From positions 14,234,961 to 14,298,960 of the forward strand of contig NC_135561.1 of NCBI RefSeq assembly GCF_964340395.1: a DNA stretch of 64,000 nucleotides. The letters run 5' to 3'. Positions 6,279 through 57,240 of the stretch are shown here, one piece after another. Under the pieces are notes generated by a model, which did no database searches, had not been told where the DNA came from, and saw only the letters and a list, made by a program, of their open reading frames with translations. Made by a program: the position numbers and the translations under genes. Origin of the DNA: Glandiceps talaboti. Taxonomy: Eukaryota > Hemichordata > Enteropneusta > Spengelidae. Within the stretch, counting starts at the first letter, position 1, and each line of letters starts with the position of its first letter.

Positions 6279-6332
<54 letters not shown>

Positions 6333-10501: not shown

Positions 10502-10570
<69 letters not shown>

Positions 10571-22781: not shown

Positions 22782-22816
<35 letters not shown>

Positions 22817-25800: not shown

Positions 25801-26515
25801 AGATTAATGAATTTCGCAAAAAAAAAGACAGACATGAGTGGTCATGTTTTAGACAAAGTCTTGTACTTACCGAGATATAGTGATGACGACTCAGGTTTGG
25901 AATGGTCATCCACGAAGGATGACCCAAGGGAATAGAGGGCGCTGTAACCTGCACCAGTGAAGCAAACACCTATAGCTAATAACATATATGCCACCTCACT
26001 GTCTTTTGAAGCCTGGCTCTTGTCATTGTTGCATTCGGGGTCCAGCGTGAAATTCTGAGGGCACACGTTCGTTTCTCTGGTACCATTCGTTACCTCATTA
26101 CTGCCGCTGTAGGCGTATTGTCCGAGAATAAAATGCGGAAGCGCTCCGATAAAATGGCCTAATGCAACAGTTATAAGCCCACAACCAATCCAGCGAGGAC
26201 GACTGCTGCTTGGACGACCGCCAAGGTAAGAAACAGGCATGATAGTTAAGAGAACACCTGCCTGTGCGATACTGGAAAGTGAACTGAGTTGTGCGCTGTT
26301 TAAATTATAACGCCTTTCAATGGTAGTTAATACAGTGGACGAGTAAGCTGACATCAGTGCATATAGCAAAATAGTTAAAGTGAACAACGTGGCGAAACAA
26401 CGAACATCCCCAAAGCATAATATCGGCTTCTTTCCCGCCATTTTTGAGACATTTAATATCTCCGTTGACTGCTCTGACGTTTAGACTGAAAGAGGGGTTC
26501 AGCTTCTCTTTAATC
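18113..26515 (-). CDS. Organic anion transporter (OATP/SLCO family), copy B, complete
   Basis: Eight coding exons, right to left: 26441-25871 (5'UTR to 26515), 25316-24987, 23215-23051, 22656-22476, 21380-21239, 20726-20566, 19596-19532, 18450-18113. They total 1,953 nt and 650 aa, with GT-AG introns and the same phases as copy A; exons 3-8 have identical lengths and exon 2 is 6 nt shorter. It starts [15 protein letters not shown] and no in-frame Met is near upstream. Features match copy A: 12 predicted membrane segments, glycosylation sites (NGT, NFT) in the loop after TM3, signature [13 protein letters not shown] with Gln for Arg, a Kazal-like loop with PVCGSDG and YTDCNC, and a C-terminal NTSM that could bind a class I PDZ domain. 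The acceptor CCCCTAG|G before 26515 is conserved with copy A, so a noncoding 5' exon is likely. No frameshift or stop was seen, so it is probably functional. Confidence 0.93.
19108..19501. repeat. MITE-like element in intron 7 of OATP copy B
   Basis: The left end (TAAGGCCAAATAAAAAAAAA, then GTTTGGTTC) pairs imperfectly with the right end read in reverse (TTAGGCGTAAAGAAAAATTG, then GTGGTTCCG). It is absent from the corresponding intron of copy A. Fragments lie at about 3,285-3,360 and 10,400-10,500, so it is dispersed. No ORF of note. Confidence 0.55.
21065..21147. repeat. Hairpin element in intron 5 of OATP copy B
   Basis: Copy of the intron 5 hairpin of gene A. The outer stem TTACCCAGTCTCCA / TGGAGTCTGGGTAA is intact and the inner part has decayed. 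Confidence 0.55.
22030..22360. repeat. Intronic interspersed repeat, intron 4 of OATP copy B
   Basis: Orthologous position to 9,070-9,500 in copy A, sharing GTGATGTCATCAC, TTAATCCATGC and AAATAAGTCTGACTG. Confidence 0.45.
22758..22915. repeat. GT / CTGT microsatellite in intron 3 of OATP copy B
   Basis: A compound GT-rich tract. The long Cys/Val/Ser-rich frames through it are simple-sequence artefacts. Copy A has a shorter GT tract at the same place (about 10,044-10,090). Confidence 0.9.
24283..24630. repeat. Palindromic (foldback) element in intron 2 of OATP copy B
   Basis: Copy of the 10,576-10,925 element, with arms TTTATCAGTGGTAGACAATT and AATTGTCTACGACG and the inner stem TTTATGTCTGT / ACAGACATAAA. 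The arms diverged more than in copy A. Confidence 0.65.
25530..25740. repeat. Intronic interspersed repeat, intron 1 of OATP copy B
   Basis: Orthologous to 11,800-12,030. Shares GGAAATCATCAAAATG, GTCAAGTGCAGTAC and AAGTATGCCTGGCAAGG-like words. Confidence 0.4.
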
Positions 26516-29530: not shown

Positions 29531-30230
29531 TACTAGCTACTAACCTTTTCAACCTGCTGTATGTATGTATGTATGTATGTATGTATGTATGTATGTATGT
29601 ATGTATGTATGTATGTATGTATGTGTGTGTGTGTGTGTGCGTGCGTGCTCGTGCGTGTGCCGTGCGTGCGTGCGTACGCACGTACGTATGTATGATTAGT
29701 ATTAATAATGAAACGACATTTACCACATCGAGTACGATCGCTTGAAAAACATTAACTTCCAATCCATTTTGTTCTGTATGGACCACCATATCTCTAACTA
29801 AGATTATTATCACGACGCCAAGCGTTATGGTGCTTCAGGAAATAACGAATTGGTTACCCTATGAATTAAAACGTAAGATATTAAAAAGCTTGACTATTAT
29901 ATATGTTTTTAACTCTGGTGGAAAAGGGATGGTATGTATATAGCCAATATGGGACGATCGTTATTACTCTTCCCTTGACAAAGATGACACCACCTGTAAA
30001 AAACACATTGTAATGTCTGGTTTTATTGACCCCTAGTGGTATGAATACATTATAAAATCATTCTGATTCTGATTGGTATAGTGGCATGTAAAGTCACTTT
30101 ACTATGTTAGAGAACTTAGGTGCCCATACTATACGGTACCCTGGATTAGTGCTCTGTGCGCCGACAGCTCACCAGTGTCAGTGTCTGACAAGTGACTGGC
30201 GCCCTCAGCGATGACCAAGAAAGGCTAATA
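29454..30230. repeat. Left copy of a direct repeat beginning with AC and ATGT microsatellites
   Basis: From the (AC)n tract at 29,470-29,526 and the (ATGT)n tract at 29,560-29,630 through GACCAAGAAAG, this is nearly identical to 33,961-34,868. It stops abruptly at the terminal repeat of the 461-bp element, whereas the right copy continues. Confidence 0.8.
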
Positions 30231-30691
30231 CAGGGGTGCGTTCGATTATGCTTCCCCGGGGAGCCTCAGACCAGGGTTACTGACGTCACTTGGGCACCTC
30301 GGGGCGTGTGAAAATCGAACGCATTTTATTGCATTTGGGGAACACCTGGGAGCCTATAATTAAATCCGTGATTCACGATAAATAATTTGGTCCGTCTTTC
30401 CAATATATTTAGACAATTTGAAGTGAAAAATTATTTCCTCACTAGATGTGGAAAGATATCCTCAAAATACGGTATAATTCTTACGGAAATTGATAACAAT
30501 AACCAATCACATGTCGTCCCCATCTTGGGTCAAGTCAGGTCAGGTCAATCCCCAAGCTGCCCCGGCCCTGTTCCATGAGGAGGGTCGACTTGGGGCGCCC
30601 CGAGTGTGACGTCATGTAGTAATCGAACGCAACTTGGGGCAACACGAGGTGCCTCGAGGCACCCTGTGTTGCATAATCGAACGCACCCCTG
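30231..30691. mobile_element. Non-autonomous DNA transposon with terminal inverted repeats
   Basis: It starts CAGGGGTGCGTTCGATTATG and ends with the exact reverse complement of that 20-mer; related GC-rich arms continue about 80 bp inward (GACGTCAC, CTCGGGGCG). Length is 461 bp with no transposase. The CAGGGG ends are compatible with hAT-type elements, but no target-site duplication is visible: the left flank belongs to the 29,454 repeat and the right flank to an OATP exon. Confidence 0.75.
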
Positions 30692-30884
30692 TTGCCACTA
30701 AAACACAAACCGCTGCTCCACAGACCTTTCCCAACCACCAAGCTCCAATCCATTGTTTGTCCGAAGAGTTCAACTCAACGGACGATACATCCACAGTGTT
30801 GAAATCAACGTAGAGAAGCAGGCATATCAGCTCCCAGGAAACTTGAAGAAATTGCTCCACCTCCCCACATCGTGCTCATTATGC
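30692..30884 (-). pseudogene. Truncated OATP coding exon 2 (unit C remnant)
   Basis: The acceptor side is intact (TAG|GCATAATGAGCACGATGTGG at 30884), matching exon 2 of copies A and B. A one-base insertion near 30,825 (GCATATCAGC against GCATGCAGC) breaks the frame before [10 protein letters not shown]. The signature region QWIGAWWLG is still readable. The exon ends at 30,692 against the inverted-repeat element; its last third, the donor and exons 3-8 are gone. It cannot encode a transporter. Confidence 0.85.
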
Positions 30885-31148
30885 CTACACATGGGGAAAT
30901 TTGATGAAAATATTCTAGAATTTTTTTTAATGTTTGCTGACCATATCTTACCTGACCAACTTGCAAAACACCTTCTATTTATCCGTCATATGCATTGAAG
31001 GCACATTCCCTCTTTTATGAGAATATCCAACATTAGTATGCGATTGGGTGCCATAATCCCCCAGAAGCTAAGAAGCACTGCCAATATGCAGTGCAATTAA
31101 TATCGTAGGAGAGATGTTTCCATTTAGATAAATACAGGTATTAAAGAT

Positions 31149-31540
31149 TAGTGTAACCAAGGTGAATTTTTCCAGTCAATACAAAGTTAGGAAAACAGGA
31201 AGAGAACAACAGTTTGTGCAGTTTATGAAAGTTTGGTTATTTCTTTGCTTTAATCATAATCGAGCAATCAATCAATCAATCAATCACTTAGTTATTCAAT
31301 TACATGATGGCTGCCCTGTACAGCCGACATTTGAAATAATTGCCTAAATTTGTAATAACGCCGATATTTGTAATAAAAATCACGTTTTTCATGTAATAAA
31401 ACTGCCCCCCCCCCTGTGAATATACTGACATTGGCTATTGCTAAGGACGTGGTCAAGGTTGCCAGGAACAGTTGCTTCATCATTCATGCATCAGGAGTTA
31501 TGAATTTATAAAACGACAGCATACATTACCGTATGTACTA
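31149..31540. repeat. OATP intron 1 segment, copy C
   Basis: Matches 56,293-56,554 next to the orphan exon 1 (shared CAGTCAATACAAAGTTA, GGAAGAGAACAACAGTTT, TTCATGCATCAGGAGTTATG). Here the homology ends at AAAACGACAGC and the expected exon 1 is missing. Confidence 0.75.
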
Positions 31541-32489: not shown

Positions 32490-33260
32490 ATTATTAAAAA
32501 AAAACATTAATTATGCAAATTATAAACTATATCAACAAGCTTTAAAGGACACATGACACACACACTTCTTTACCATCAATGCATACTCTAAATTTTCTGA
32601 AATTTAAAGCGTACATTGTAAGCTTAAGGTTATTGCCTAATTATCAAAAATGATTATGCAAATTAAACGTCATAGAAAATAAATCAAACACGTGTGATTT
32701 GTTATAGTTGATATATGTACCAAATTAAATGAAATCTGAAGATTGCATCCTTAAGATATAGCCTAATTACAGAAAATCATTAATTATACAAATCACTCAT
32801 TAAAACTAAAACACTATACCAACAGGCCTTGTAGGATATGTGCTTTGTCATTGTTATGTGCCAAATTATCTGGAATTCGAAATGTGCACTCTTGAGATAT
32901 AGCTTAATTTCAGAAAATCATTAATTATGCAAATTAATCATTACAACTAAAAGCTATGCCATCAGGCCTTGTAGGATATGCGTGCTTTATTATGGTTGAT
33001 GTATGTGCCAAGTTATATTGAATTTGAAACTTAAATTCTATATAGCCTAATTACTTGCTTGCAATATTACGATATGGCCTAATTACCTAAGACCATCAAT
33101 CATGCAAATTATTCATTAAAACTATACACGAGCCGACATATGCACTTTGCCATGGTTAACACATATACCAAATTATGTTGAATTTGAAGCGAGCATTCTT
33201 AAAATATACAATTACTAACTAACCAGCCTAATTACTACAAACCATAAATTATGCAAATGA
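32490..33260. repeat. Tandem repeat of about 145 bp, roughly five diverged units
   Basis: Each unit has GCCTAATTA, a TTAATTATGCAAATTA-like word, CTATACCAACAGGCCTTGTA, GTGCTTTGTCATGGTT and ACCAAATTATGTTGAATTTG in the same order. The units are too diverged for recent expansion. About one and a half units occur inverted at 54,480-54,720. Confidence 0.65.
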
Positions 33261-33965
33261 CTAATTAATGTTCATTTGCTGTTTACAAAAAGCTAAACAG
33301 TTCTTGTGTTTAGCATATGGAAGATGGGTGGCAAGTGTCATTAGAATCGATGCAGTAGTTTTTGAGATATCGTGTCCACAGACAGACACACAAAAGCATA
33401 ACACTATGCCCTCCCTTTATAGGAGGTAATCAATCTTGAAAATGATTTCAAATGGCAATATATACAAACTATTTACATAAGGTTGGGTATACTCAAAAAT
33501 CATTATTATAAAAAATGGGTTACCATGGAAACCAGACTAAATTGTTTACAATAGAAAATACATTATAATAATTATTTATACAAAACTTCTGCATATACAT
33601 ATGAGAGATGACCATGTTTCACATCATTTGACGTAATCTACTCAAATGTTGCTCAGTTACCATGGTAGCCAATATAGTGTAGTAACACTCTACTAAAACC
33701 ACTTTGGTTTGTTTGGCAGAAAATTGACATTTATTCAAAGGTTAACATATAGTGCTCATTCAAAGTACAGCATCAGGAACAATAATTGTGGACAATAAAA
33801 ATATTCATAAAAATCAAAAATTGCCATAAAGTAACATACAGCTTTCCCTTATAAAATGGAAAAGTGTCACTGTTCTCCAAGCAAAGTAAAGTACAACTGT
33901 TCCACAGTCAAAGTAAAGTGTATCTGTTCCACAGTCAAAGTAAAGTATAACCAACCGTTCCAACA
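33060..33965. repeat. Left arm of an inverted repeat, ending in minisatellite units
   Basis: It is the reverse complement of 53,735-54,700, for example CATAACACTATGCCCTCCCT here and AGGGAGGGCGTAGTGTTATG near 54,300. Its inner end (33,866-33,961) is three or four reverse-oriented units of the large minisatellite, as in CAAAGTAAAGTGTATCTGTT. An AC tract follows. Confidence 0.75.
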
Positions 33966-34005
33966 CACACACACACACACACACACATACACACACACAC
34001 ACGTG

Positions 34006-34038
<33 letters not shown>

Positions 34039-34868
34039 TACTAGCTACTAACCTTTTCAACCTTTTCAAGGTTTATTTATTTATAAATGAACCTTTTCAA
34101 CCTGTGTGTATGTATGTATGTATGTATGTATGTATGTATGTATGTATGTATGTATGTATGTATGTATGCATGCATGCATGCATGCATGCATGCATGCATG
34201 TATGCATGTATGTATGTATGTATGTATGTATGTATGTATGTATGTGCGCGCGTGTGCGTGCGTGCTCGTGCGTGTGTCGTGCGTGCGTGCGTACGTACGT
34301 ACGTATGTATGATTAGTATTAATAATGAAACGACATTTACCACATCGAGTACGATCGCATGAAAAGCATTAACTTCCAATCCATTTTGTTCTGTATGGAC
34401 CACCATATCTCTAACTAAGATTATTATCCCAACGCCAAGCGTTATGGTGCTTCAGGAAATAATGAATTGGTTACCCTATGAATTAAAACGTAAGATATTA
34501 AAAAGCTTGAATATTATATGTTTTTAACTCTGGTGGAAAAGGGATCGTATGTATATAGCCAATATGGGACGATCGTTATTACTCTTCCCTTGAGAAAGAT
34601 GACACCGCCTGTAAAAACCACATTGTAATGTCTGGTTTTATTGACCCCTAGTGGTATGAATACATTATAAAATCATTCTGACTCTGATTCTGATTGGCAT
34701 AGTGACATTACTATTGCAGATAGTAAAGTCACTTTACTATGTTAGAGAACTTAGGTGCCCATACTATACGGCACACTGGATTAGTGCTCTGTGCGCCGAC
34801 AACTCACCAGTGTTGTGTCAGGTGACTGACAAGTGACTGGCGCCCTCAGCGATGACCAAGAAAGACTA
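33961..34868. repeat. Right copy of the direct repeat with AC and ATGT microsatellites
   Basis: Duplicate of 29,454-30,230 with AC, ATGT and ATGC tracts (33,963-34,034 and 34,108-34,240). The flank GAAATACTAGCTACTAACCT is shared. It continues into the exon-like segment ending at 35,033. Confidence 0.8.
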
Positions 34869-34891
34869 ATGCAACACAAGCACGTCTTGTC

Positions 34892-37386: not shown

Positions 37387-38477
37387 AAAAATGTCAAACA
37401 TCTTTCACAAAAATTGACAGCAACCTGAATGCAGATGAAGATTTGAGACAACCAAGATAAGTTCTGCTAATTGTTACATTTGAAATTTTCAACCATTAAA
37501 GCTTTGCTGTAGTCAGATTGCACATACACAAAATAGATTTAAGCTTACTAGATGTTAGAATTATCTGATTGATATGTGCATGTAATGTTTGTCAACTGAA
37601 GTTATGTCTTGACCATGACCATCTGTTGAGGTCAGATACTAATAACTTTCAAGTTTATATATAGAAGTTGACAGCTCTTAAAGTTGAAGTATTTTATAAA
37701 TTCTCTTACATTAATTTGCTAAAAGCATACACGGTGGAACACAAGCAAAATATGTCCAGACTGCCAAATTTATGAGAACTAAAAAAAGAGAATGTTTAAA
37801 TTTCATATTTGGACATTGTTGATATGCATATTTAATTATTCAGGGCTGTTTGCATGGTGCAATGATGTCTGGATTGCTGCATGCAATAAACGAATCAAAT
37901 AAATTTCCACAAATGTGGTAGATTTACCCATCCTCTGTCTTTCGCATTTTGACCGATACCTTTTACCTCTCCTTGCAAAATCGAATTCCATTGAGAACAA
38001 ATGAACATGTAATTGGCTAGAAAGATGCAGTGAAATGAAAATGAATATCACCAGTCATGTAGCATATTATTTTGAGTGTGTCAGATAAAAGTTAATGGCA
38101 TGAACATAGAGACAGACATACATTGGATGTAGGGCATTATTGGGGCAATACTTTGACAGTTGCTGTAGAAGACGTATCGGAATAAGAAGACATACATGAC
38201 CAACTCTTTCACACTGAATCATGCACAGCACTTCAAAAACCTTCCACAACTTTACCAGTATGGTTAAACCCTCGGTCTATATGGCACAGCCTGAATGACA
38301 ACATATATTATTTAAATGCATCAGATGTTGATCACTTTGGGTAAACCTTTTTTGATGCAAGTGTACAGAAGAACCAAACATCATGAAGTCCAGTAAGAAA
38401 ATGTAATACATTCTGTTTTATCAATAAGTTCTGACAGACCCACAGTTTATATAAACACATCACCCTGTTGTTTGTAT

Positions 38478-38780: not shown

Positions 38781-39877
38781 CACAAATATTGTTGTACGAA
38801 TTAGAGGGTGATGTGACTGTATACCATGGGTTGGTCAAAAACTCACCGATAATACAGAATGTACCATTGCATATTCTTTTTTGGCCTCTGTGATGTGTGG
38901 TTCTTCTGTTCACTTCTACCGTCTTCAATGAAAAATTGTTTATTCAAACTGATCATAATGTGATGCCTTTGATATCCAGATATGTTGTCCATCAGGCCAG
39001 GCCATACAAATTGAGGGGGTACCCATACCGGTGAAGTTATGGAAGGGGTAACTGAATTGATGTGCATGATTCAGTGTGAAAGAGTTTGTCATATTGCCAT
39101 CTCTTTCCAGTATGTCATCAATGCCAACTGTCAATGTATTGAAACAATAATGTCATATTTCCTATATATATCTGTCCTAATGTTCATGGCATTAACTTTC
39201 ATCTGACACACCCAAGATAACATGCTCCATGATCGGTGAAATTCATATTTATTTCAGCGTATCTTTTTTGGCCAATGTCATGTTTATTTTTGTCAATAGG
39301 ATTAGATTTTACACTGAAAAGGCAAAAAGTAATGGTCACAATGCAAAGGATGGAGTAAGGATATATCTGCAACATTTGTAGCCATTTCTTTGTTTCGTTT
39401 AGCAGTGCAGCCATCCATGTGTTGGTCCACATGAACTGAAGTGGGTACTTCATTAACTGTTTCCCATTGTCCAGCCATAGTTAATGATCAGTCTCAAAGT
39501 ATTGATCATAATTTTCTTACTGCTCTGCAGACCATTGTTTTTATTCACAAACCACTGTGACATTCTTTGTTCATGAGTTGCAAAATGCTGTCTGCAAGGT
39601 GAGTTGTTTTCACTCTCTATCCAGCTTTGCAAAGTGTTCATCTTGTGTCAATCGACAGCTGGGCAGCATGATATTTTGAAGATACTGGAATATCAATCGC
39701 CGATCATTCACAAAGATCTTTATTATGTTCATCAGTTATAAACTAATGTCCAAGACAGAATGGTACTCTGCAGATAGTCAATGTATTGTTTAGAATCATT
39801 TATTGTTATATTATGACCATGACATGTGTATGTATTGCCTATCTTTCTTTCTACTCAGTCATCACAACAAAATCAAA

Positions 39878-40499: not shown

Positions 40500-41286
40500 A
40501 AAAAAAGTCAAGACTACAAGTTACATCACCAAAAACACTATTCGCAATCCACTGCAGTCTTAATGTTGTAAAGGAAGAGGAAGAATTCTACCAGCTTGTT
40601 GCCCTGGTAAGAATTAACAGTCGTTAACATCTCCAAGACATTTGAAAAACTATGTGGTATTTGCACCAACAATGACATGTATTAAATGAGTGAGTAGAAC
40701 ATAGCAGTATACTTTGTAAGATCCAGAAGCTGTAAAACTTATATTTCATAATTATTGTTCATAATGTCAACTTTCATGTGAAGCATGTATTTATAATTTG
40801 TCAACAAATTCATATCCAATTCAGGATTGTTTATCAAAAATCATATACAGCATTACTAAATTCAGCCATTGAAAGGAATATTTAAACTGTTTCCAGTGAG
40901 TTTTATCAAGTACAACTTGCCCCCCCCCCTCAAATAACATGTATTTGACAAATGAAAGAAAGAATGAAAAATGATTACAGCTTCTGGGTTTCAATATTTG
41001 AGATTTCTTTATTAAAGTCATACTGGCTTGCAGATTTTGTTGGTGACCTGGTATATGATGCAATAGGGAACATAGGTGTTAAGGAATCATTAAATTCTGA
41101 GAAATTTTATTATTTGTGAAAATCACTGATACTGTATCCTTAAACAAGTGCAATCTGCCTCTAAATTATTCATGGGGTTATTGAGCAAACCCCTAATCCC
41201 CTGCCATGGGCACTGTCTTTTACGTGGACTTAACCTGAAGATGAGGGACCTACATGAATTTGTAAAGTTTTGTAGTGCATGCGTGC

Positions 41287-41323
<37 letters not shown>

Positions 41324-42344
41324 TGAATAACTTAACACTTGAAATCACTGGACCTACTGCTTAAGTTGATGTATTTGTTTAGGTGTTACTAGGGTGTCTA
41401 CTTGTGGAAATTTTCAAACACAAAATGACTGTGCCATAGATGTTGATCAGGTAAAAAAAGAGACTTTATGTTAATCCCAACACAGCTTAGTTGACATTTG
41501 GTATGATAAAGATGATTACCTGTTCAATGAAAGATGATGTGCAAATTTATTTGAAAAAGTTGATATCTCATAGGAGGCTTGTGCCCTAAAATGGCTGACA
41601 GATTTGTGTATTTATTGGGGTGTCCAACGAGTCTTAAAAGTGCATGTTAATGGCTATATGACAGATAGGGACAAGAGAAACATAGCCACCACAACCTCCA
41701 TATTCCTAGGAATATGTTAACCAATTGATATTGGGGTCAAAAGAAGTGAGATTAATTAGGTATTATTCTAATGTATATAATCCCCAGCAACCATAAAAAT
41801 GGCATATGCAACTTTAAACGCTACAGTTATATCAACTGACAATACAGCAATTTTTATACAGTGTTGCTAAATGAGTGCCATCTTGTTATATTCTAAAACT
41901 ACTTCTAAAACAAACGCCTTCTCACTCATTTGATTATGGAGAATATTTGATGAGCATTTGTATATAAAATATGAATTGCTCGTCATAGTTATCAAGAATT
42001 TGAATATCATTATTATCATTTCATTGCAATTGAAGAATACCTAACCCATACATATCTTCATTGTATTTATTTGGTAGACTTTGTTGCCCAGTCCCTTTGC
42101 GTATGCTTTGGTCACCTCTAGTCTTAGCACCTAACCCTAACCCTAACCATTAACCATTAACCAAACTAATATCTAACCATATCTGTAAAGACTAACACAA
42201 AACATCTGGGTGATTGCTAAGCTTATGCAAAGGAAAAAGGCAACTTGGTTTACCATTTTGATATAATGATGATTTTTGGGATATCATTATTTTTAATATA
42301 CGTTTGTTATTGTTCATTGTATTCAAAGATTTTATATAGATTAG
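40500..42344. other. Spacer left of the minisatellite array
   Basis: AT-rich with a poly-C run at 40,920 and a GT tract at 41,289-41,320. I see no gene. Confidence 0.4.
42130..42148. repeat. Short telomere-like repeat
   Basis: CCTAACCCTAACCCTAACC gives about three units of CCCTAA, the animal telomere repeat, about 200 bp left of the minisatellite. It is short enough to be chance or a relic. Confidence 0.5.
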
Positions 42345-45300
42345 AATCCATATGGGTACCAGAATAGTTATACCACCTTTATGGGGGGGGGGGGGGGTAG
42401 CTATACATCTTCTATTTGGAGCAGTTATACATTGATTAGGGGAAAAGCTATACTTGAATTGAACACCTGTTCTACTTACATGAGGGCAATAACTATACAA
42501 CTATACTCTTATGAGGAGACAACTACACTTTACTTTCATGGAGGAATATGTATACTAATATTATTATACTTTGATTAGGAACAATTACACTTTACTTTGA
42601 TTAGGAAATAGTTACACTTTACTTTGATTAGGTACAATTACACTTTACTTTGATTGGGGAACAGTTACACTTTACTTTGATTAGGGAACAGTTACACTTT
42701 ACTTTGATTAGGGAACAGTTACACTTTACTTTGATTAGGGAACAGTTACACTTTACTTTGATTAGGGAACAGTTACACTTTACTTTGCCTGGGGAACAGT
42801 TACACTTTACTTTGATTAGGTAACAGTTACACTTTACTTTGATTAGGGAACAGTTACACTTTACTTTGATTAGGGAACAGTTACACTTTACTTTGATTAG
42901 GGAAGTTACACTTTACTTTGATTAGGAAATAGTTACACTTTACTTTGATTAGGAACAGTTACACTTTACTTTGATTAGGAAATAGTTACACTTTACTTTG
43001 ATTTGGAACAGTTACACTTTACTTTGATTAGGAAATAGTTACACTTTACTTTGATTAGGGAACAGTTACACTTTACCTTGATTAGGGAACAGTTACACTT
43101 TACTTTGATTAGGGAACAGTTACACTTTTCTTGGGGAACAGTTACATTTTACTTTGCTTTGGGAACAGTTACATTTTACTTCGATTGGGGAACAGTTACA
43201 CTTTACTTTGATTGGGAAACAGTTACACTTTACTTTGATTGGAAAACAGTTACACTTTACTTTGATTGGGAACAGTTACACTTTACTTTGATTGGGGAAC
43301 AGTTACATTTTACTTTGGGGAACAGTTACACTTTACTTTGATAAGGGAACAGTTATACTTTACTTTGATTTGAGAACAGTTACATTTTACTTTGGAAACA
43401 GTTACATTTTACTTTGATTTTGGAATAGTTACATTTTACATTGAATGGGGAACAGTTACACTTTACTTTGATTGGGGAACAGTTACACTTTACTTTGATT
43501 AGGAACAGTTATAGTTTACTTTGATTTTAGAACAGTTACATTTTACTTTGAATGGGGGACAGTTACACTTTACTTTGATTGGGGAACAGTTACACTTTAC
43601 TTTGATTATGAACAGTTATACTTTACTTTGATTTGAGAACAGTTACATTTTACTTTGAATGGGGGACAGTTACACTTTACTTTGATTGGGGAACAGTTAC
43701 ACTTTGCTTTGATTAGGAACAGTTATACTTTACTTTGATTGGGAAACAGTTACACTTTACTTTGATTGGGGAACAGTTACATTTTACTGTGCCTGAGGAA
43801 CATTTACACTTTACTTTGATTAGAGAACAGATACATTTTACTTTGAATGGGGAACAGTTACACTTTAATTTGATTAGGGAACAGTTACACTTTACTTTGA
43901 TTAGGGAACAGTTACACTTTACTTTGATTGGGAACAGTTACACTTTACTTTGATTAGGGAAGTTACAATTTACTTTGATTAGGAAACAGTTACACTTTAT
44001 TTTGATTGGGGAACAGTTACACTTTACTTTGCTTTGGGAAACAGTTACATTTTACTTTGCTTTAAGAACAGTCACACTTTATTTTGATTAGGGAACAGTT
44101 ACACTTTACTTTGATTGGGGAACAGTTACACTTTACTTTGATTAGGGAACAGTTACACTTTACTTTGATTAGGGAACAGTTACACTTTACTTTGATTAGG
44201 GAACAGTTACACTTTACTTTGATTAGGGAATGGTTACACTTTACTTTGATTAGGGAACAGTTACACTTTATTTTGATTGGGGAACAGTTAACTTTACTTT
44301 GATTAGGGAACAGTTACACTTTACTTGAATTTGGGAACAGTTACACTTTACTTTGATTAGGGAACAGTTACACTTTACTTTGATTAGGGAACAGTTACAC
44401 TTTACTTTGATTAGGAAATAGTTACACTTTACTTTGATTAGGAACAGTTACACTTTACTTTACTTTGATTAGGGAACAGTTACACTTTACTTTGATTAGG
44501 GAATAGTTACACTTTACTTTGATTGGGAACAGTTACACTACTTTGATTAGGGAACAGTTACACTTTACTTTGATTAGGAAATAGTTACACTTTACTTTGA
44601 TTGGGAACAGTTACACTTTACTTTGATTAGGGAACAGTTACATTTTACTTTGATTAGGAAATAGTTACACTTTACTTTGATTAGAGAACAGTTACACTTT
44701 ACTTTGGTTAGGAAATAGTTACACTTTACTTTGATTGGGAACAGTTACACTTTACTTTGATTAGGGAACAGTTACACTTTACTTTGATTAGGAAATCGTT
44801 ACACTTTACTTTGATTGGGAACAGTTACATTTTACTTTGCTTGGGGAACAGTTACACTTTACTTTGATTAGAGAACAGTTACACTTTACTTTGATTAGGG
44901 AACAGTTACATTTTACTTTGAATGGGGGACAGTTACACTTTACTTTGATTGGGGAACAGTTACACTTTGCTTTGATTGGGAACAGTTACATTTTACATTG
45001 AATGGGGAACAGTTACACTTTACTTTGATTGGGGAACAGTTACACTTTACTTTGATTAGGAACAGTTATAGTTTACTTTGATTTGAGAACAGTTACATTT
45101 TACTTTGAATGGGGGACAGTTACACTTTACTTTGATTCTGGAACAGTTACACTTTACTTTGATTAGGAACAGTTATACTTTACTTTGATTTGAGAACAGT
45201 TACATTTTACTTTGAATGGGGGACAGTTACACTTTACTTTGATTGGGGAACAGTTACACTTTGCTTTGATTAGGAACAGTTATACTTTACTTTGATTGGG

Positions 45301-48300
45301 AAACAGTTACACTTTACTTTGATTGGGGAACAGTTACATTTTACTGTGCCTGAGGAACATTTACACTTTACTTTGATTAGAGAACAGTTACATTTTACTT
45401 TGAATGGGGGACAGTTACACTTTATTTTGATTGGGGAACAGTTACACTTTAATTTGATTAGGGAACAGTTACACTTTACTTTGATTAGGGAACAGTTACA
45501 CTTTACTTTGATTGGGAACAGTTACACTTTACTTTGATTAGGGAAGTTACAATTTACTTTGATTAGGAAACAGTTACACTTTATTTTGATTGGGGAACAG
45601 TTACACTTTACTTTGCTTTGGGAAACAGTTACATTTTACTTTGCTTTAAGAACAGTCACACTTTATTTTGATTAGGGAACAGTTACACTTTACTTTGATT
45701 GGGGAACAGTTACACTTTACTTTGATTAGGGAACAGTTACACTTTACTTTTGATTAGGGAACAGTTACACTTTACTTTGATTAGGGAACAGTTACACTTT
45801 ACTTTGATTAGGAAATCGTTACACTTTACTTTGATTGGGAACAGTTACATTTTACTTTGCTTGGGGAACAGTTACACTTTACTTTGATTAGAGAACAGTT
45901 ACACTTTACTTTGATTAGGGAACAGTTACATTTTACTTTGAATGGGGGACAGTTACACTTTACTTTGATTGGGGAACAGTTACACTTTGCTTTGATTAGG
46001 AACAGTTACATTTTACATTGAATGGGGAACAGTTACACTTTACTTTGATTGGGGAACAGTTACACTTTACTTTGATTAGGAACAGTTATAGTTTACTTTG
46101 ATTTGAGAACAGTTACATTTTACTTTGAATGGGGGACAGTTACACTTTACTTTGATTCTGGAACAGTTACACTTTACTTTGATAAGGGAACAGTTATACT
46201 TTACTTTGATTTGAGAACAGTTACATTTTACTTTGAATGGGGGACAGTTACACTTTACTTTGATTGGGGAACAGTTACACTTTGCTTTGATTAGGAACAG
46301 TTATACTTTACTTTGATTGGGAAACAGTTACACTTTACTTTGATTGGGGAACAGTTACATTTTACTGTGCCTGAGGAACATTTACACTTTACTTTGATTA
46401 GAGAACAGTTACATTTTACTTTGAATGGGGGACAGTTACACTTTATTTTGATTGGGGAACAGTTACACTTTGCTTTGATTAGGAACAGTTATACTTTACT
46501 TTGATTGGGAAACAGTTACACTTTACTTTGATTGGGGAACAGTTACATTTTACTGTGCCTGAGGAACATTTACACTTTACTTTGATTAGAGAACAGTTAC
46601 ATTTTACTTTGAATGGGGGACAGTTACACTTTATTTTGATTGGGGAACAGTTACACTTTAATTTGATTAGGGAACAGTTACACTTTACTTTGATTAGGGA
46701 ACAGTTACACTTTACTTTGATTGGGAACAGTTACACTTTACTTTGATTAGGGAACAGTTACACTTTACTTTGATTAGGGAACAGTTACACTTTACTTTGA
46801 TTAGGAAACAGTTACACTTTACTTTGCTTTGGGAAACAGTTACATTTTACTTTGCTTTAAGAACAGTCACACTTTATTTTGATTAGGGAACAGTTACACT
46901 TTACTTTGATTGGGGAACAGTTACACTTTACTTTGATTAGGGAACAGTTACACTTTACTTTGATTAGGGAACAGTTACACTTTACTTTGATTAGGGAACA
47001 GTTACACTTTACTTTGATTAGGGAATGGTTACACTTTACTTTGATTAGGGAACAGTTACACTTTATTTTGATTGGGGAACAGTTAACTTTACTTTGATTA
47101 GGGAACAGTTACACTTTACTTGAATTTGGGAACAGTTACACTTTACTTTGATTAGGGAACAGTTACACTTTACTTTGATTAGGGAACAGTTACACTTTAC
47201 TTTGATTAGGAAATAGTTACACTTTACTTTGATTAGGAACAGTTACACTTTACTTTGATTAGGGAACAGTTACACTTTACTTTGATTAGGGAACAGTTAC
47301 ACTTTACTTTGATTAGGGAACAGTTACACTTTACTTTGCCTGGGGAACAGTTACACTTTACTTTGATTAGGTAACAGTTACACTTTACTTTGATTAGGGA
47401 ACAGTTACACTTTACTTTGCCTGGGGAACAGTTACACTTTACTTTGATTAGGTAACAGTTACACTTTACTTTGATTAGGGAACAGTTACACTTTACTTTG
47501 ATTAGGGAACAGTTACACTTTACTTTGATTAGGGAAGTTACACTTTACTTTGATTAGGAAATAGTTACACTTTACTTTGATTAGGAACAGTTACACTTTA
47601 CTTTGATTAGGAAATAGTTACACTTTACTTTGATTTGGAACAGTTACACTTTACTTTGATTAGGAAATAGTTACACTTTACTTTGATTAGGGAACAGTTA
47701 CACTTTACCTTGATTAGGGAACAGTTACACTTTACTTTGATTAGGGAACAGTTACACTTTTCTTGGGGAACAGTTACATTTTACTTTGCTTTGGGAACAG
47801 TTACATTTTACTTCGATTGGGGAACAGTTACACTTTACTTTGATTGGGAAACAGTTACACTTTACTTTGATTGGAAAACAGTTACACTTTACTTTGATTG
47901 GGAACAGTTACACTTTACTTTGATTGGGGAACAGTTACATTTTACTTTGGGGAACAGTTACACTTTACTTTGATAAGGGAACAGTTATACTTTACTTTGA
48001 TTTGAGAACAGTTACATTTTACTTTGGAAACAGTTACATTTTACTTTGATTTTGGAATAGTTACATTTTACATTGAATGGGGAACAGTTACACTTTACTT
48101 TGATTGGGGAACAGTTACACTTTACTTTGATTAGGAACAGTTATAGTTTACTTTGATTTTAGAACAGTTACATTTTACTTTGAATGGGGGACAGTTACAC
48201 TTTACTTTGATTGGGGAACAGTTACACTTTACTTTGATTAGGAACAGTTATACTTTACTTTGATTTGAGAACAGTTACATTTTACTTTGAATGGGGGACA

Positions 48301-51300
48301 GTTACACTTTACTTTGATTGGGGAACAGTTACACTTTGCTTTGATTAGGAACAGTTATACTTTACTTTGATTGGGAAACAGTTACACTTTACTTTGATTG
48401 GGGAACAGTTACATTTTACTGTGCCTGAGGAACATTTACACTTTACTTTGATTAGAGAACAGATACATTTTACTTTGAATGGGGAACAGTTACACTTTAA
48501 TTTGATTAGGGAACAGTTACACTTTACTTTGATTAGGGAACAGTTACACTTTACTTTGATTGGGAACAGTTACACTTTACTTTGATTAGGGAAGTTACAA
48601 TTTACTTTGATTAGGAAACAGTTACACTTTATTTTGATTGGGGAACAGTTACACTTTACTTTGCTTTGGGAAACAGTTACATTTTACTTTGCTTTAAGAA
48701 CAGTCACACTTTATTTTGATTAGGGAACAGTTACACTTTACTTTGATTGGGGAACAGTTACACTTTACTTTGATTAGGGAACAGTTACACTTTACTTTGA
48801 TTAGGGAACAGTTACACTTTACTTTGATTAGGGAACAGTTACACTTTACTTTGATTAGGGAATGGTTACACTTTACTTTGATTAGGGAACAGTTACACTT
48901 TATTTTGATTGGGGAACAGTTAACTTTACTTTGATTAGGGAACAGTTACACTTTACTTGAATTTGGGAACAGTTACACTTTACTTTGATTAGGGAACAGT
49001 TACACTTTACTTTGATTAGGGAACAGTTACACTTTACTTTGATTAGGAAATAGTTACACTTTACTTTGATTAGGAACAGTTACACTTTACTTTACTTTGA
49101 TTAGGGAACAGTTACACTTTACTTTGATTAGGGAATAGTTACACTTTACTTTGATTGGGAACAGTTACACTACTTTGATTAGGGAACAGTTACACTTTAC
49201 TTTGATTAGGAAATAGTTACACTTTACTTTGATTGGGAACAGTTACACTTTACTTTGATTAGGGAACAGTTACACTTTACTTTGATTAGGAAATAGTTAC
49301 ACTTTACTTTGATTAGAGAACAGTTACACTTTACTTTGGTTAGGAAATAGTTACACTTTACTTTGATTGGGAACAGTTACACTTTACTTTGATTAGGGAA
49401 CAGTTACACTTTACTTTGATTAGGAAATCGTTACACTTTACTTTGATTGGGAACAGTTACATTTTACTTTGCTTGGGGAACAGTTACACTTTACTTTGAT
49501 TAGAGAACAGTTACACTTTACTTTGATTAGGGAACAGTTACATTTTACTTTGAATGGGGGACAGTTACACTTTACTTTGATTGGGGAACAGTTACACTTT
49601 GCTTTGATTAGGAACAGTTACATTTTACATTGAATGGGGAACAGTTACACTTTACTTTGATTGGGGAACAGTTACACTTTACTTTGATTAGGAACAGTTA
49701 TAGTTTACTTTGATTTGAGAACAGTTACATTTTACTTTGAATGGGGGACAGTTACACTTTACTTTGATTCTGGAACAGTTACACTTTACTTTGATTAGGA
49801 ACAGTTATACTTTACTTTGATTTGAGAACAGTTACATTTTACTTTGAATGGGGGACAGTTACACTTTACTTTGATTGGGGAACAGTTACACTTTGCTTTG
49901 ATTAGGAACAGTTATACTTTACTTTGATTGGGAAACAGTTACACTTTACTTTGATTGGGGAACAGTTACATTTTACTGTGCCTGAGGAACATTTACACTT
50001 TACTTTGATTAGAGAACAGTTACATTTTACTTTGAATGGGGGACAGTTACACTTTATTTTGATTGGGGAACAGTTACACTTTAATTTGATTAGGGAACAG
50101 TTACACTTTACTTTGATTAGGGAACAGTTACACTTTACTTTGATTGGGAACAGTTACACTTTACTTTGATTAGGGAAGTTACAATTTACTTTGATTAGGA
50201 AACAGTTACACTTTATTTTGATTGGGGAACAGTTACACTTTACTTTGCTTTGGGAAACAGTTACATTTTACTTTGCTTTAAGAACAGTCACACTTTATTT
50301 TGATTAGGGAACAGTTACACTTTACTTTGATTGGGGAACAGTTACACTTTACTTTGATTAGGGAACAGTTACACTTTACTTTTGATTAGGGAACAGTTAC
50401 ACTTTACTTTGATTAGGGAACAGTTACACTTTACTTTGATTAGGAAATCGTTACACTTTACTTTGATTGGGAACAGTTACATTTTACTTTGCTTGGGGAA
50501 CAGTTACACTTTACTTTGATTAGAGAACAGTTACACTTTACTTTGATTAGGGAACAGTTACATTTTACTTTGAATGGGGGACAGTTACACTTTACTTTGA
50601 TTGGGGAACAGTTACACTTTGCTTTGATTAGGAACAGTTACATTTTACATTGAATGGGGAACAGTTACACTTTACTTTGATTGGGGAACAGTTACACTTT
50701 ACTTTGATTAGGAACAGTTATAGTTTACTTTGATTTGAGAACAGTTACATTTTACTTTGAATGGGGGACAGTTACACTTTACTTTGATTCTGGAACAGTT
50801 ACACTTTACTTTGATTAGGAACAGTTATACTTTACTTTGATTTGAGAACAGTTACATTTTACTTTGAATGGGGGACAGTTACACTTTACTTTGATTGGGG
50901 AACAGTTACACTTTGCTTTGATTAGGAACAGTTATACTTTACTTTGATTGGGAAACAGTTACACTTTACTTTGATTGGGGAACAGTTACATTTTACTGTG
51001 CCTGAGGAACATTTACACTTTACTTTGATTAGAGAACAGTTACATTTTACTTTGAATGGGGGACAGTTACACTTTATTTTGATTGGGGAACAGTTACACT
51101 TTAATTTGATTAGGGAACAGTTACACTTTACTTTGATTAGGGAACAGTTACACTTTACTTTGATTGGGAACAGTTACACTTTACTTTGATTAGGGAAGTT
51201 ACAATTTACTTTGATTAGGAAACAGTTACACTTTATTTTGATTGGGGAACAGTTACACTTTACTTTGCTTTGGGAAACAGTTACATTTTACTTTGCTTTA

Positions 51301-53150
51301 AGAACAGTCACACTTTATTTTGATTAGGGAACAGTTACACTTTACTTTGATTGGGGAACAGTTACACTTTACTTTGATTAGGGAACAGTTACACTTTACT
51401 TTGATTAGGGAACAGTTACACTTTACTTTGATTAGGGAACAGTTACACTTTACTTTGATTAGGGAATGGTTACACTTTACTTTGATTAGGGAACAGTTAC
51501 ACTTTATTTTGATTGGGGAACAGTTAACTTTACTTTGATTAGGGAACAGTTACACTTTACTTGAATTTGGGAACAGTTACACTTTACTTTGATTAGGGAA
51601 CAGTTACACTTTACTTTGATTAGGGAACAGTTACACTTTACTTTGATTAGGAAATAGTTACACTTTACTTTGATTAGGAACAGTTACACTTTACTTTGAT
51701 TAGGGAACAGTTACACTTTACTTTGATTAGGGAATAGTTACACTTTACTTTGATTGGGAACAGTTACACTACTTTGATTAGGGAACAGTTACACTTTACT
51801 TTGATTAGGAAATAGTTACACTTTACTTTGATTGGGAACAGTTACACTTTACTTTGATTAGGGAACAGTTACACTTTACTTTGATTAGGAAATAGTTACA
51901 CTTTACTTTGATTAGAGAACAGTTACACTTTACTTTGGTTAGGAAATAGTTACACTTTACTTTGATTGGGAACAGTTACACTTTACTTTGATTAGGGAAC
52001 AGTTACACTTTACTTTGATTAGGAAATAGTTACACTTTACTTTGATTGGGAACAGTTACATTTTACTTTGCTTGGGGAATAGTTACACTTTACTTTGATT
52101 AGAGAACAGTTACACTTTACTTTGATTAGGGAACAGTTACACTTTACTTTGATTGGGAACAGTTACACTTTACTTTGATTAGGGAACAGTTACACTTTAC
52201 TTTGATTAGGAAATAGTTACACTTTACTTTGATTGGGAACAGTTACACTTTACTTTGATTAGGGAACAGTTACACTTTACTTTGATTAGGAAATAGTTAC
52301 ACTTTACTTTGATTGGAAACAGTTACACTTTACTTTGATTAGGGAACAGTTACACTTTACTTTGATTAGGGAACAGTTACACTTTACTTTGATTGGGAAC
52401 AGTTACACTTTACTTTGATTAGGGAACAGTTACAGTTTACTTTGATTGGGGAACAGTAACACCTTACTTTGATTAGGGAACAGTTACACTTTACTTTGAT
52501 TTTGGAACAGTTACACTTTATTTTGATTGGGGAACAGTTAACTTTACTTTGATTAGGGAACAGTTACACTTTACTTGAATTAGGGAACAGTTACACTTTA
52601 CTTGAATTAGGAAATAGTTACACTTTACTTTGATTAGGGAACAGTTACACTTTACTTTGATTAGGGAACAGTTACACTTTACCTTGCTTGGGGAACAGTT
52701 ACATTTTACTTTGCTTGGGGAACAGTTACATTTTACTTTGATTGGGGAACAGTTACACTTTACTTTGATTGGGAAACAGTTACACTTTACTTTGATTGGG
52801 GAACAGTTACATTTTACTTTGATTAGGAACAGTTATACTTTACTTTGATTTGAGAACAGTTACATTTTACTTTGAATCGGGGACAGTTACACTTTACTTT
52901 GAATCGGGGAACAGTAACTTTGCTTTGATTTGATTAGGGACCAGTTACACATTACTTTGATTGTAGAACAGTTACATTTTATTTTGATTGAGGCACAGTT
53001 GTACATTACTTTGATTGGGGAACAGTTATACTTTACTTTCCTATGGGAAGTGTTACATGGTACTTTGACAAACAGTTATCTTTCATTTTCATTGAGGAAC
53101 ATTTACACTTTACTTTGATTTTGTAGAACAGTTACACTTTATTTTTATGA
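42345..53150. repeat. Large minisatellite array of about 27-bp units with higher-order repeats
   Basis: The unit is close to GGGAACAGTTACACTTTACT followed by TTGATTA, 27 bp with 24-30 bp variants, repeated for about 10.6 kb (near 390 units). Variants include GGAAATAGTT, GGGGAACAG, TTTGAGAACAG and CTGTGCCTGAGGAACATTTA. Blocks of variants recur in order about 4,632 bp apart (43,051 and 47,683; 43,735 and 48,367; 44,084 and 48,716; 45,292 and 49,924), showing large segmental duplication inside the array. The ends (42,345-42,580 and 52,900-53,150) are degenerate. Because 27 is a multiple of three, frames stay open for long runs, but 26-bp units shift the frame and nothing indicates translation. 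Confidence 0.95.
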
Positions 53151-53580
53151 GTGAAAAGCTATACGTTATTTTCTGGCCATTTATATATTTTTCAATGTTT
53201 TCATATTATCCATAATTGTTCATGATGATGTACTTTGAATCAGCACTATGTTACCTTTGAATAAATATTAATTTTGTGCCAAACAAACCGAAGTGGCTTT
53301 AGCATTGTATTACTACACTATACTGGCTACCATGGTAGATTGTTATTTGATGTATAACATGGTCAATCTATCTTGTATGTATGTATGTAGGCAGATTTGT
53401 TTTTTACAAATAACTATTTGTGAAATAAAACCACCCTTAAGTGATTTCCCCGCTTATTTTCTATTGTAAACATTTTAGTCTGGTTTCCATGGCAACCGAA
53501 TTTTTTATAATAAAAATTGTATGTCTGTGCGTGGACATGATATCTGAAAACCTACTGGCTAAAATAGTCTATAACATGTG
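53150..53580. repeat. Flank repeat F1, right of the array
   Basis: A diverged direct copy of 53,830-54,230: TTGTCCATAATT-like start, TGTACTTTGAAT, AACCTTTGAATAAAT, GCCAAACAAACC, CTACACTATA, TGTTTCCATGGCAAC-like end. Confidence 0.7.
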
Positions 53581-53734
53581 AAGAATTTGTTATTTAGTTT
53601 TAGTTTGGATTCAATCATTGGCTCAACCACTGATGTTTTAGCACAACTGAACTTCTTAGGTTCAGTAGTGCTACAAGCATATGACAAAGTATCTGTGTGT
53701 GTGTGTGTGTCTGTGTGTGTGTGTTGGAACAGTT

Positions 53735-54700
53735 ATACATGTACTTTACTTTGATTGTGGAACAGATACACTTTACTTTGGGGAACAGTTGTACTTTACT
53801 TTGCTTGGAGAACAGTGACACTTTTTCATTTGATAAGGGAAAGCTGTGTTATTTTATGGCAATTTTTGATTTTTATGAATATTTTTATTGTCCATAATTA
53901 TTGTTCCTGATGGTGTACTTTGAATGAGCACTATATGTTAACCTTTGAATAAATGTCAATTTTCTGCCAAACAAACCAAAGTGGTTTTAGTAGTGTTACT
54001 ACACTATATTGGGTACCATGGTAACTGAGCAACATTTGAGTAGATTATGTCAAATGATGTGAAACGTGTCATATCTCGTATGTATATGTAGATTTTTTTG
54101 TATAAATAATTATTTGTGAAATAAAACCCCACTGTTACGTGATTTCACCGTGTATTTTCTATTGTAAACCTTTGTCTGGCTTCCATGGCAACCCATTTTT
54201 TATAATGATTTTTGAGTATACCCAACCATATGTAAATAGAGTTTGTACTATATATTGCCATTTGTAATTATTTTCATGACTGATGTTTACCTCCCATAAA
54301 GGGAGGGCGTAGTGTTATGGTTTTGTGTGTCTGTGTGTCAGTGTGTGTATGTATGTGTCTGTCTGTGGACACGATATCTCAAAAACTACTGCATCGATTC
54401 TAATGACACTTGCCACCCATCTTCCATATGCTAAACACAAGAACTATTTAGCTTTTTGTAAACAGCAAATGAACATTAATTAGTCATTTGCATAATTTAT
54501 GGTTTGTAATAATTAGGCTGGTTAGTTAGTAATTGTATATTTTAAGAATGCTCGCTTCAAATTCAACATAATTTGGTATATGTGTTAACATGACAAACTG
54601 CATATGTAGTGTATAGTTTGTTGATGTAGCCTATAGTTTTAATGAATAATTTGCATGATTGATGGTCTTTGGTAATTAGGCCATATCTTAATATTGCAAG
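53735..54700. repeat. Flank repeat F2, right arm of the inverted repeat
   Basis: Begins with three or four minisatellite units (53,735-53,830) after a GT tract. It continues as the reverse complement of 33,060-33,965, with GGAGGGCGTAGTGTTATGG and CAAAAACTACTGCATCGATT as landmarks. Confidence 0.75.
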
Positions 54701-56029
54701 CTGCAATCTTTTTTGGACACCTATCTGTATGTGGTATTAAAGCCTGGTGGCAGTGTAACCAAACAATGTAAATTTAGCTTGTTGGTGCAAGTTTGTGTAT
54801 GAAGCCACGAGTGCAATCAGAACCTATGGTTTTGCTCAGACGGGAAGTGTTCAGTTTAAATCTGGTTGATTATATATTTACTGTAGGATATATATAGGGT
54901 ATATATATATATCTCAAAAAGTTAAGACATTGCTATACCTTGTAATGATGTTATTATTAGTTTTCTTATCGTTTGAAATTGTAGATCTTACAAATTGAAG
55001 CTGATCCTAATTTCTATGGCTTCACCGTTTATAACAAGTGGTTCGATTCAATCTAAAGCTTTCTTAATTTCTTTAGTTTTTGAAACATGGAGGTTGACGA
55101 GATTGTAAATTTAGTTGCGATACGCGATAATTGTGCCTCTGAAAATAGGGTAGGTAGGTCGGGATTTGATTTTGATTTGATTTTAAATTTATCTTTATAT
55201 CTTTTTAATAGTTTTTATATTTGAAACAATATTGCTTCGACCCACAAACAATCAAAATGTAGGTCAGAATACCCCTTCTGGGATAGTTTGATGAAATATG
55301 TACAGGCATCACTGGGGAAAGAAAACAGACGTGCATGAATGTCAAGAAGACAAAGAATTTCTGGGCTTTAAATGCTTAAAAAAATTTCGGGTCGGAGGTT
55401 GGTCAGGCTATCGGAAACACAATTTATTTTAGTTTGCCTCAGGCTAAATTTTCTTAAAACCATTTACAGTGGTATTACCCGCGAACTCGATTATTTCGGT
55501 AATTGTTTGACTAGAAACACAATCATATGTGTACATAGAGTATAGCAGTGTACGTAGCTAGAACACATCCTTGGGTGTACCTGAAGACGATGGACGAAGA
55601 TGCATTGTTACCAACTTTAATCTGATATCTGCGCGATAGAAAAATTAGAATCCAGAAATAGATTGATTTCGGAAAACCGAATTCCTTAAAGGGGAATAAT
55701 GTGATGTTAACTCAATCTTGGCTACGCCTCAGGATTCCATAAAAGTCAGTGTCATCAATTCTACATCACGTGACCTCACTAAAATAATGTAGTAAAGTTG
55801 TGCAAATTGGTGAATATTGTCTATGAAGAGGCTGTTGCACATTGATGCGAGGCATTCTGGGAAATAACTAAAGTTAGGGGGCTAACACAGACACATACAT
55901 ACATACATACATACATACATACATACATACATACATACATAGAGGTTGAAAAGGTTAGCCGTATTACTGTGTGTGCGTGTGTGTGTGTTTAAGACACAAT
56001 AACTCAAACCCGCTTTCAAATGTCAATTG
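54701..56029. other. Spacer inside the right flank
   Basis: About 1.3 kb with no counterpart in the left flank. It holds a (CATA)n tract at 55,893-55,940 and a GT tract at 55,970-55,990; the flank GAGGTTGAAAAGGTTAG is the inverted form of the CTTTTCAACC boundary seen at 34,050 and 59,820. No gene seen. Confidence 0.4.
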
Positions 56030-56292
56030 TAGACCGTGATATCTTCGGCATCCACAAACACCAATGTCCTTGAGAGTCCAAGTAACACTTAATGGTACAT
56101 GTATCTAGATTTTCAAAGATTTATAATGGTAAAGAGTGTGACAATTGAGGAGGTTTGAGCTCTAGTAAACATAAAGGTGGTTCAAATAAATTAGAACATT
56201 GGTTATCAAATGGGTACATTAGTTTCACGTGACCACAGCAGACACGTGACACTTTGATCTGAAAATGACACGCTTATCATCCAGTTTTATCT
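56030..56292 (+). repeat. Inverted copy of the OATP upstream region
   Basis: Reverse complement of 31,994-32,290 with small deletions: GTGACCACAGCAGACACGTG, CTTATCATCCAGTTTTATCT. It joins at 56,292/56,293 to the intron 1 segment of unit D in the opposite sense. Confidence 0.75.
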
Positions 56293-56554
56293 AGTGTAAC
56301 CAGGGTGAATTGTTCCAGTCAATACAAAGTTAAGAAAACAGGAAGAGAACAACAGTTTATGCAGTTTATGAAAGTTTGATCATAATCGATCAATCCATCA
56401 CTTAGTTATTCAATTACATGATGGCTGCCCCCCCCCCCCCCCCGTGAACATACTGACATTGGCTATTGCTAAGTACGTGGTCAAGGTTGCCAGGAACAGT
56501 TGCTTCATCATTCATGCATCAGGAGTTATGAATTTATAAAACGACAGCATCACG
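56293..56554. repeat. OATP intron 1 segment, copy D
   Basis: Direct copy of 31,149-31,540 with a shorter central part and a poly-C run at about 56,430. It leads straight into the donor side of the orphan exon 1. Confidence 0.75.
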
Positions 56555-56592
56555 ATCGAGTGGTCATGGTCTAGATAGAGTGTTGTACTTAC

Positions 56593-57240
56593 CGAGATAT
56601 AGGGATGACGACTCGTGTTTAGAATGGTCATCCACGAAGGATGACCCAATGGTATAGAGGGCGCTGTAACCTGTACCGCCTATGAAAACACCAGCAGCTA
56701 ATAACATATATGCCACCTCGCTGTCTTTTGAAGTCCCACTCTCATCATTTTTACATTCAGGGTTTACCGTAGAATTCTGAGGGCACACATTCGTTTCTTT
56801 GGTACCATTCGTTACGTCATTACTACCACTGTAGGTGTATTGTCCGAGAATGAAATGTGGCAGCGCTGTGACGAAATGGCCTAATGCAACAGTTATAAGC
56901 CCACAGCCAACCCAGCGAGGACGACTGCTGTTTGGACGTCCGCCAAGATAAGAAACAGGCATGATAGTTAGGAGGCAACCTGCCTGTGCGATACTGACAA
57001 GCGAATTTAGTTGTGCGCTGTTTAAGCTGTAACGCCTTTCAATGGTAGTTAATACGCTGGAAGAATAGGACTCCATCATGGAATACATCAAGATGGTTAA
57101 GCAAAACAATAAGACGAAACAGCGAACATCCCCAAAGCATAATATCGGCTTCTTTTCCACCATTTTTGGAAACTTTCTTTATTTCCCTGTTGTCTATCGA
57201 TGATATTTCATGAAAGTGTGTTCAGTTCCCCTTTTTTGTT
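56593..57240 (-). pseudogene. Orphan OATP exon 1 (unit D)
   Basis: An intact coding exon from ATG 57163 to donor CTCG|GTAAGT at 56593, 571 nt as in copies A and B. It starts [15 protein letters not shown] and has predicted TM1-4 with NGT and NST glycosylation sites. The 5'UTR acceptor is TTTTTGCTAG at 57241. No exon 2-8 follows: the next 260 bp are intron 1, then an inverted upstream block, flank repeats and the minisatellite. The only other OATP coding piece downstream before copy B is the frameshifted half exon 2 at 30.7 kb. As it stands it can encode only the first 190 residues. An assembly error remains possible. Confidence 0.8.

Follow-up and report, generated by a model that had tools for sequence, protein, structure and literature searches.

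A 10.8-kb minisatellite with nested higher-order repeats in an OATP gene cluster of Glandiceps talaboti and its probable growth from a short array borne by a dispersed repeat

The window that we analysed, a stretch of 64,000 nucleotides from the hemichordate Glandiceps talaboti, carries exons of OATP transporters (SLCO; PF03137) on its minus strand, and the tandem cluster that they form surrounds a long minisatellite, in keeping with the preliminary description of this DNA, which had placed the repeat within a gene array. Two OATP genes, each with a Kazal exon, lie at 5639-12778 and 18113-26480 (both on the minus strand), and their five longest nucleotide matches are 77-82% identical; the 3' part of a further OATP gene, also on the minus strand, runs from 61651 to the window edge at 64000. 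The best solved relatives of the window's OATP and Kazal exons are SLCO (OATP) transporters. The array itself sits in a 25-kb gap between an exon homologous to the first of five per gene (56564-57178, minus strand, open for 204 aa) and a broken second exon, left as two pieces in different frames (30642-30909, minus strand); the numbering of these exons counts only the five per gene that were used as queries. Between 26.5 and 56.5 kb, no match to the third, Kazal or last query exon was obtained at an E value of 0.01, and the exon and the remnant that flank the gap are probably parts of one decayed OATP gene. A viral or prokaryotic origin was considered for the window and rejected, given its OATP and Kazal exons, a combination indicative of an animal; the exact 26-base pattern of the repeat unit had 0 matches in viral and prokaryotic contig collections, from which records close to its own genome may be absent.

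Several other repeats were seen in this part of the cluster. Direct copies of presumed intron sequence beside the OATP first exon occur at 56292-56550 and 31149-31522 (97.5% identical over 118 bp and 80% over 168 bp), one on either side of the 25-kb stretch containing the array. There is also a direct duplication at 29558-30232 and 34175-34873 (91.6% identical in a 701-column alignment) and an inverted repeat of ~600 bp at 37870-38466 and 38805-39417, whose arms are 74% identical and ~340 bp apart, possibly a foldback element.

One tandem array of 27-bp units with nested higher-order repeats fills 42,345-53,145 on the plus strand, a length of ~10.8 kb. TRF delimits it at 42,567-53,145 (period 27, 395.2 copies, 87% matches, 2% indels), and a unit parse of the same interval gave 396 units with the consensus TACTTTGATTAGGGAACAGTTACACTT, close to the estimate of about 390 units of roughly 27 bp made beforehand. 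Among the parsed units, 306 are 27 bp long and 59 are 26 bp long; they fall into 77 distinct sequences, the commonest of which, unit A, is present 76 times. Minisatellites, or VNTRs, have head-to-tail units of roughly 7-100 bp, as seen here with a unit of 27 bp, and alleles that differ in length. Centromeric satellites are defined by their centromeric location and very long arrays; the array described here is a local one of 10.8 kb amid OATP exons, and no observation made on it points to a centromere.

Both edges of the array are degenerate. The start at 42,345 that had been proposed from inspection stands up to alignment: 42,345-42,566 (plus strand) aligns as degenerate units, with a wrap-around score of 26 against a mononucleotide-shuffle mean of -16.6 (sd 6.0) and 0 of 300 shuffles scoring as high. 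At the right edge (52841-53145, plus strand), the mean edit distance to the unit is 6.5 for the last 12 units (5.2 if the 6-bp remnant at the very end is left aside), compared with 2.0 for all units. No unit signal was detected just outside these limits, 286 of 300 shuffles scoring as high as 42,200-42,344 on the left and 175 of 300 as high as 53,146-53,300 on the right. In Smith's model, exchange is said to homogenise the middle of an array and to leave its ends unhomogenised, and the worn edges fit this expectation. About 200 bp to the left of the array, at 42130-42148, there is a short telomere-like run of CCTAACCCTAACCCTAACC.

The variants of the unit follow one another in an order that is not random, as had been suggested. 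When shifts of the array against itself were scored by units (+1 for a match, -2 for a mismatch), the best score was 127, and the largest among 200 random orders of the array's own units was 6. A base-level self-comparison, in which shifts were ranked by the number of bases in exact runs of at least 80, placed 4,632, 1,020, 5,652, 1,557 and 1,584 bp at the head of the list, the 5,652-bp shift being the sum of 4,632 and 1,020, with 188 bp in eighth place; the nested shifts of 1,557, about 1,020 and 188 bp given in the preliminary description were thus all recovered. Expressed in units, these shifts amount to 173 (4,632 bp), 58-59 (1,557 and 1,584 bp), 38 (1,020 bp) and 7 (188 bp), to which a shift of 3 units (81 bp) can be added. 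The 4,632-bp shift gives 71.1% identity over its whole overlap with a longest exact run of 1,205 bp, and the longest exact run of the 1,020-bp shift is 1,014 bp. Random pairs of units are a median of 3 edits apart. At the 173-unit shift, by comparison, 135 of 139 units are identical (42,754-46,470 versus 47,386-51,101), as are all 37 of 37 at the 38-unit shift (49,385-50,376 versus 50,405-51,396), and both blocks are higher-order repeats in the usual sense.

The two copies of the 173-unit block lie at 42754-47277 and 47386-51718 (both plus strand). Over the 3,716 bp aligned between the stretches just given, they differ by 4 substitutions (0.11%) and one 1-bp indel, which bears out the near-identical recurrence 4,632 bp further on that had first drawn attention to the array. 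The match can be extended to 47,277 and 51,718 if a 188-bp insertion that only the first copy has is bridged; it then contains a 2-bp indel and 9 substitutions in 4,333 bp (0.21%), of which 5 are clustered in 44 bp. The private insertion is a duplication, visible as two adjoining identical 7-unit blocks at 46283-46658 (plus strand) in the first copy only, and where the second copy starts, the unit strings and listing show two adjoining 3-unit (81-bp) blocks of identical sequence (47305-47466, plus strand). The second copy also contains two adjoining 38-unit blocks at 49385-51396 (plus strand), which align over 1,019 bases with two 1-bp indels and 0 substitutions; a related pair in the first copy, from 44,753, has 7 substitutions in 1,017 (0.69%) and several indels, the 188-bp one included. 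The 173-unit copies are further distinguished by a 53-bp patch at 46754-46806 (plus strand), a conversion-like tract in which the units T-P-I are exchanged for A-A-P, variants known elsewhere in the array, with 5 substitutions and a 2-bp indel relative to the other blocks. One unit is swapped for a variant present three times and one change leads to a variant present five times, while two of the unit variants that separate the copies occur once each in the whole array.

The preliminary description was incomplete in one respect, since it missed the likely origin of the array: the 27-bp motif occurs in short form, in about three copies, in two further stretches whose tail is common to the giant array, which supports a seed origin. 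The tail behind the giant array, E1, lies at 53155-53560 (plus strand). The second stretch, E2 (53694-54701, plus strand), consists of a TG microsatellite, ~3 units of 27 bp at 53,740-53,824 (3.0-3.2 copies by TRF), the common tail and a Helentron-like left flank at 54,288-54,391. The third, E3, is inverted (33057-33993, minus strand) and has 3.4 units at 33,861-33,951 followed by the same tail. E2 and E3 are 86% identical over ~1 kb, and the tail, ~350 bp long, is 77% identical between the giant array (53,155-53,511) and E2 (53,840-54,206), its three copies all coming from this window. Allowing up to 7 substitutions, a scan for the motif found 7 matches that start outside 42,345-53,150, namely six in E2 and E3 and one stray at 36,706. 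After the tail, E1, E2 and E3 all reach GTGGACACGATATCTCAAAAACTACTG, which has 3 matches in the window with 0 expected, the copy behind the giant array carrying 3 mismatches. A search of E1 for CCTCCCATAAAGGGAGG, which stands shortly before GTGGACACGATATCTCAAAAACTACTG in both E2 and E3, found no copy with up to 3 mismatches. Against a growth of the giant array from such a short one, its left edge showed no TG microsatellite like those ahead of the units in E2 and E3, and the known copies of the tail number only these three. The consensus unit of the array contains TTAGGG and the units of E2 and E3 do not; a link to telomeres was rejected on these grounds, and we take TTAGGG to be derived within the array.

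Judged by its sequence, the region past the tail in E2 and E3 is reminiscent of a non-autonomous Helentron's left end. The Cg_HINE elements of Crassostrea gigas are dispersed elements of this kind that carry tandem repeats, and in the sections of their description used here the left flank comprises a pair of short inverted repeats and a GTCY microsatellite, followed by central repeats (PMC7492417). The putative left flanks of E2 and E3 recall this layout in that they contain CCTCCCATAAAGGGAGG, with one change in E3, and the GTCY-like GTCTGTCTG; unlike the central repeats of Cg_HINE, as set out in the same sections (PMC7492417), the 27-bp array lies upstream of the left flank. Past this flank, E3 contains diverged repeats, the best pair of which is 143 bp apart and 76% identical. 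We have not classed the carrier repeat as a Helentron, because the 27-bp array stands upstream of the left flank, outside the frame of left flank and central repeats, and a search for a Helentron right end, with its palindrome and matching subterminal repeat, found none. Neither were convincing terminal inverted repeats, such as a foldback or MITE transposon would have, found in 53,500-55,000, 32,500-34,200 or 41,200-42,600, and the true ends of the element may lie elsewhere. Its three diverged copies in two orientations suggest that the carrier is, or was, a mobile element.

Taken together, we consider it probable that the giant array is a minisatellite borne by this dispersed repeat, which expanded from ~3 units to ~396 by in-register block duplication. 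The dispersed repeat would have brought with it a short 27-bp minisatellite, and at 42.3-53.5 kb the ~3-unit array of one copy would then have grown to ~396 units through repeated in-register duplication of blocks of 3, 7, 38, 58-59 and 173 units, either by homologous unequal exchange between sister chromatids or by template switching within the array, with point mutations and small conversion-like patches superimposed. The change would have run from short to long, although the short arrays of E2 and E3 could have contracted instead of being ancestral. The block matches consist of whole identical units, and the copying therefore kept the unit register. Located by eye, the breakpoints of the 173-, 38- and 3-unit blocks fall inside runs of the commonest unit A and that of the 188-bp block falls between two units one base apart; since 17% of random unit pairs lie within an edit distance of 1, the homology seen at these four junctions is no more than suggestive. 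Junctions and register are nonetheless such as homologous exchange or template switching within a repeat would give. The earlier proposal of unequal exchange or replication-based copying thus holds as far as the copying of kilobase blocks in unit register is concerned, and either mechanism would account for it.

We compared the array with two models of neutral change, in both of which the long-shift score was taken over shifts of at least 30 units. In a growth-biased model, with random duplication and deletion of blocks and point mutation, stopped at 396 units or more after at least 3,000 steps, 15 of 96 runs under 16 settings reached a best score of 127 or more, a figure that the bias and the stopping rule may inflate by favouring recent gains, arrays of more than 600 units being cut to 400. 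In a bias-free model kept at 250-550 units, scores of at least 127 were seen in 2 of 1,592 samples and scores of at least 100 in 13 of 1,592 (20 settings; samples from one run are not independent). The bias-free model weakens the neutral argument, since a 4.6-kb block of such purity is rare in it and a recent event or an artefact is needed. The pattern requires no special mechanism, but it does require a recent large duplication, whether genuine or made by the assembler.

The 4.6-kb duplication is accordingly either very recent or a product of the assembly, in which two haplotypes, or one locus, were joined end to end within the array. This second reading is rather unlikely, but several points speak for it: only 4 substitutions separate the copies in 3,716 bp, exact runs extend to 1,205 bp, both boundaries of the block lie inside the repeat, and purity of this degree was rare at constant size (2 of 1,592 samples). 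Against it, the copies differ in structure, by the 188-bp and 81-bp duplications and the patch of swapped units, and these differences, together with the two variants unique in the array, look like more than consensus error, although allelic differences could still account for them. Adjoining 1,020-bp blocks are present within each copy, so that the nested order survives even if the 4,632-bp duplication is artefactual. A more doubtful alternative is that the array represents an old independent satellite and that the dispersed repeat took up pieces of it. Capture is named as an alternative to expansion for plant satellites in the portion of that study drawn on here (PMC7004042), but the tail common to the short arrays also stands behind the giant one, whose context is in this sense like theirs, and a single long array is in view.

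Least probable of all is a function for the array as a protein-coding repeat, a structured RNA or a boundary or regulatory element. The length of 27 bp is divisible by 3, a 9-residue repeat stays open over short stretches, and the array is located between transporter exons. A coding repeat was nevertheless rejected, the longest stop-free stretch being 104 codons and every one of the six frames having 189-391 stops. An array of structured RNAs or hairpins found no support: no Rfam family reached its gathering threshold in the window, and one ten-unit stretch folded no better than its shuffles (z of -0.56 for plus-strand DNA and +1.08 for minus-strand RNA). We treat the array as a non-coding and presumably functionless passenger in a decayed part of the OATP cluster.

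Each component of the expansion that we favour has a precedent. Tandem repeats internal to the Tetris transposon of Drosophila virilis (TIR-220) seed longer arrays of up to 66 copies, for which unequal crossing over has been invoked, according to the part of that work considered here (PMC4079207). The likeness is that short element-internal tandem repeats act, or would act, as the seed of longer arrays; the Tetris unit, as characterised in that same part, is ~220 bp rather than 27 bp, its carrier is a foldback transposon, its setting is beta-heterochromatic, and it has the terminal inverted repeats that were not found in the three stretches searched here (PMC4079207). The human ABCA7 VNTR, a minisatellite of 25-bp units, has alleles exceeding 10,000 bases (~400 units) among the people investigated, and it is similar to our array in unit length and in its scale of ~400 units; it differs in its high GC content and its association with disease risk, and the passages on it that we cite make no mention of a transposon origin (PMC6857246). 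In the excerpted results on plant satellites, short arrays borne by elements give rise to satellites, some of which have higher-order patterns, and FabTR-2 (49-bp unit) forms short-unit multimers in several such patterns that differ between arrays (PMC7004042). The array described here shares with FabTR-2, so far as those results go (PMC7004042), the short-unit multimers in several higher-order patterns, but is one local array of 10.8 kb.

Should the 4.6-kb duplication be genuine, some four changes by block or patch have followed it, namely the 188-bp and 81-bp duplications, the three-unit patch and the unit swap, compared with one ambiguous change and two unit variants that no other part of the array shows. 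At face value, new point mutations have been no more frequent than changes of blocks and patches, although the 81-bp duplication might belong to the 173-unit breakpoint rather than being a later change. It is conceivable, if rather a long shot, that the array remodels faster than it mutates, being a young and unstable element-borne expansion that may serve as a local site of exchange reshuffling OATP copies. The locus illustrates a familiar process neatly and gives a clear view of the way in which long arrays may begin, with the short form, the carrier and the overgrown copy within 22 kb and the latest duplication steps legible unit by unit. If long reads confirm the locus, block changes could be counted directly against point mutations in one array.
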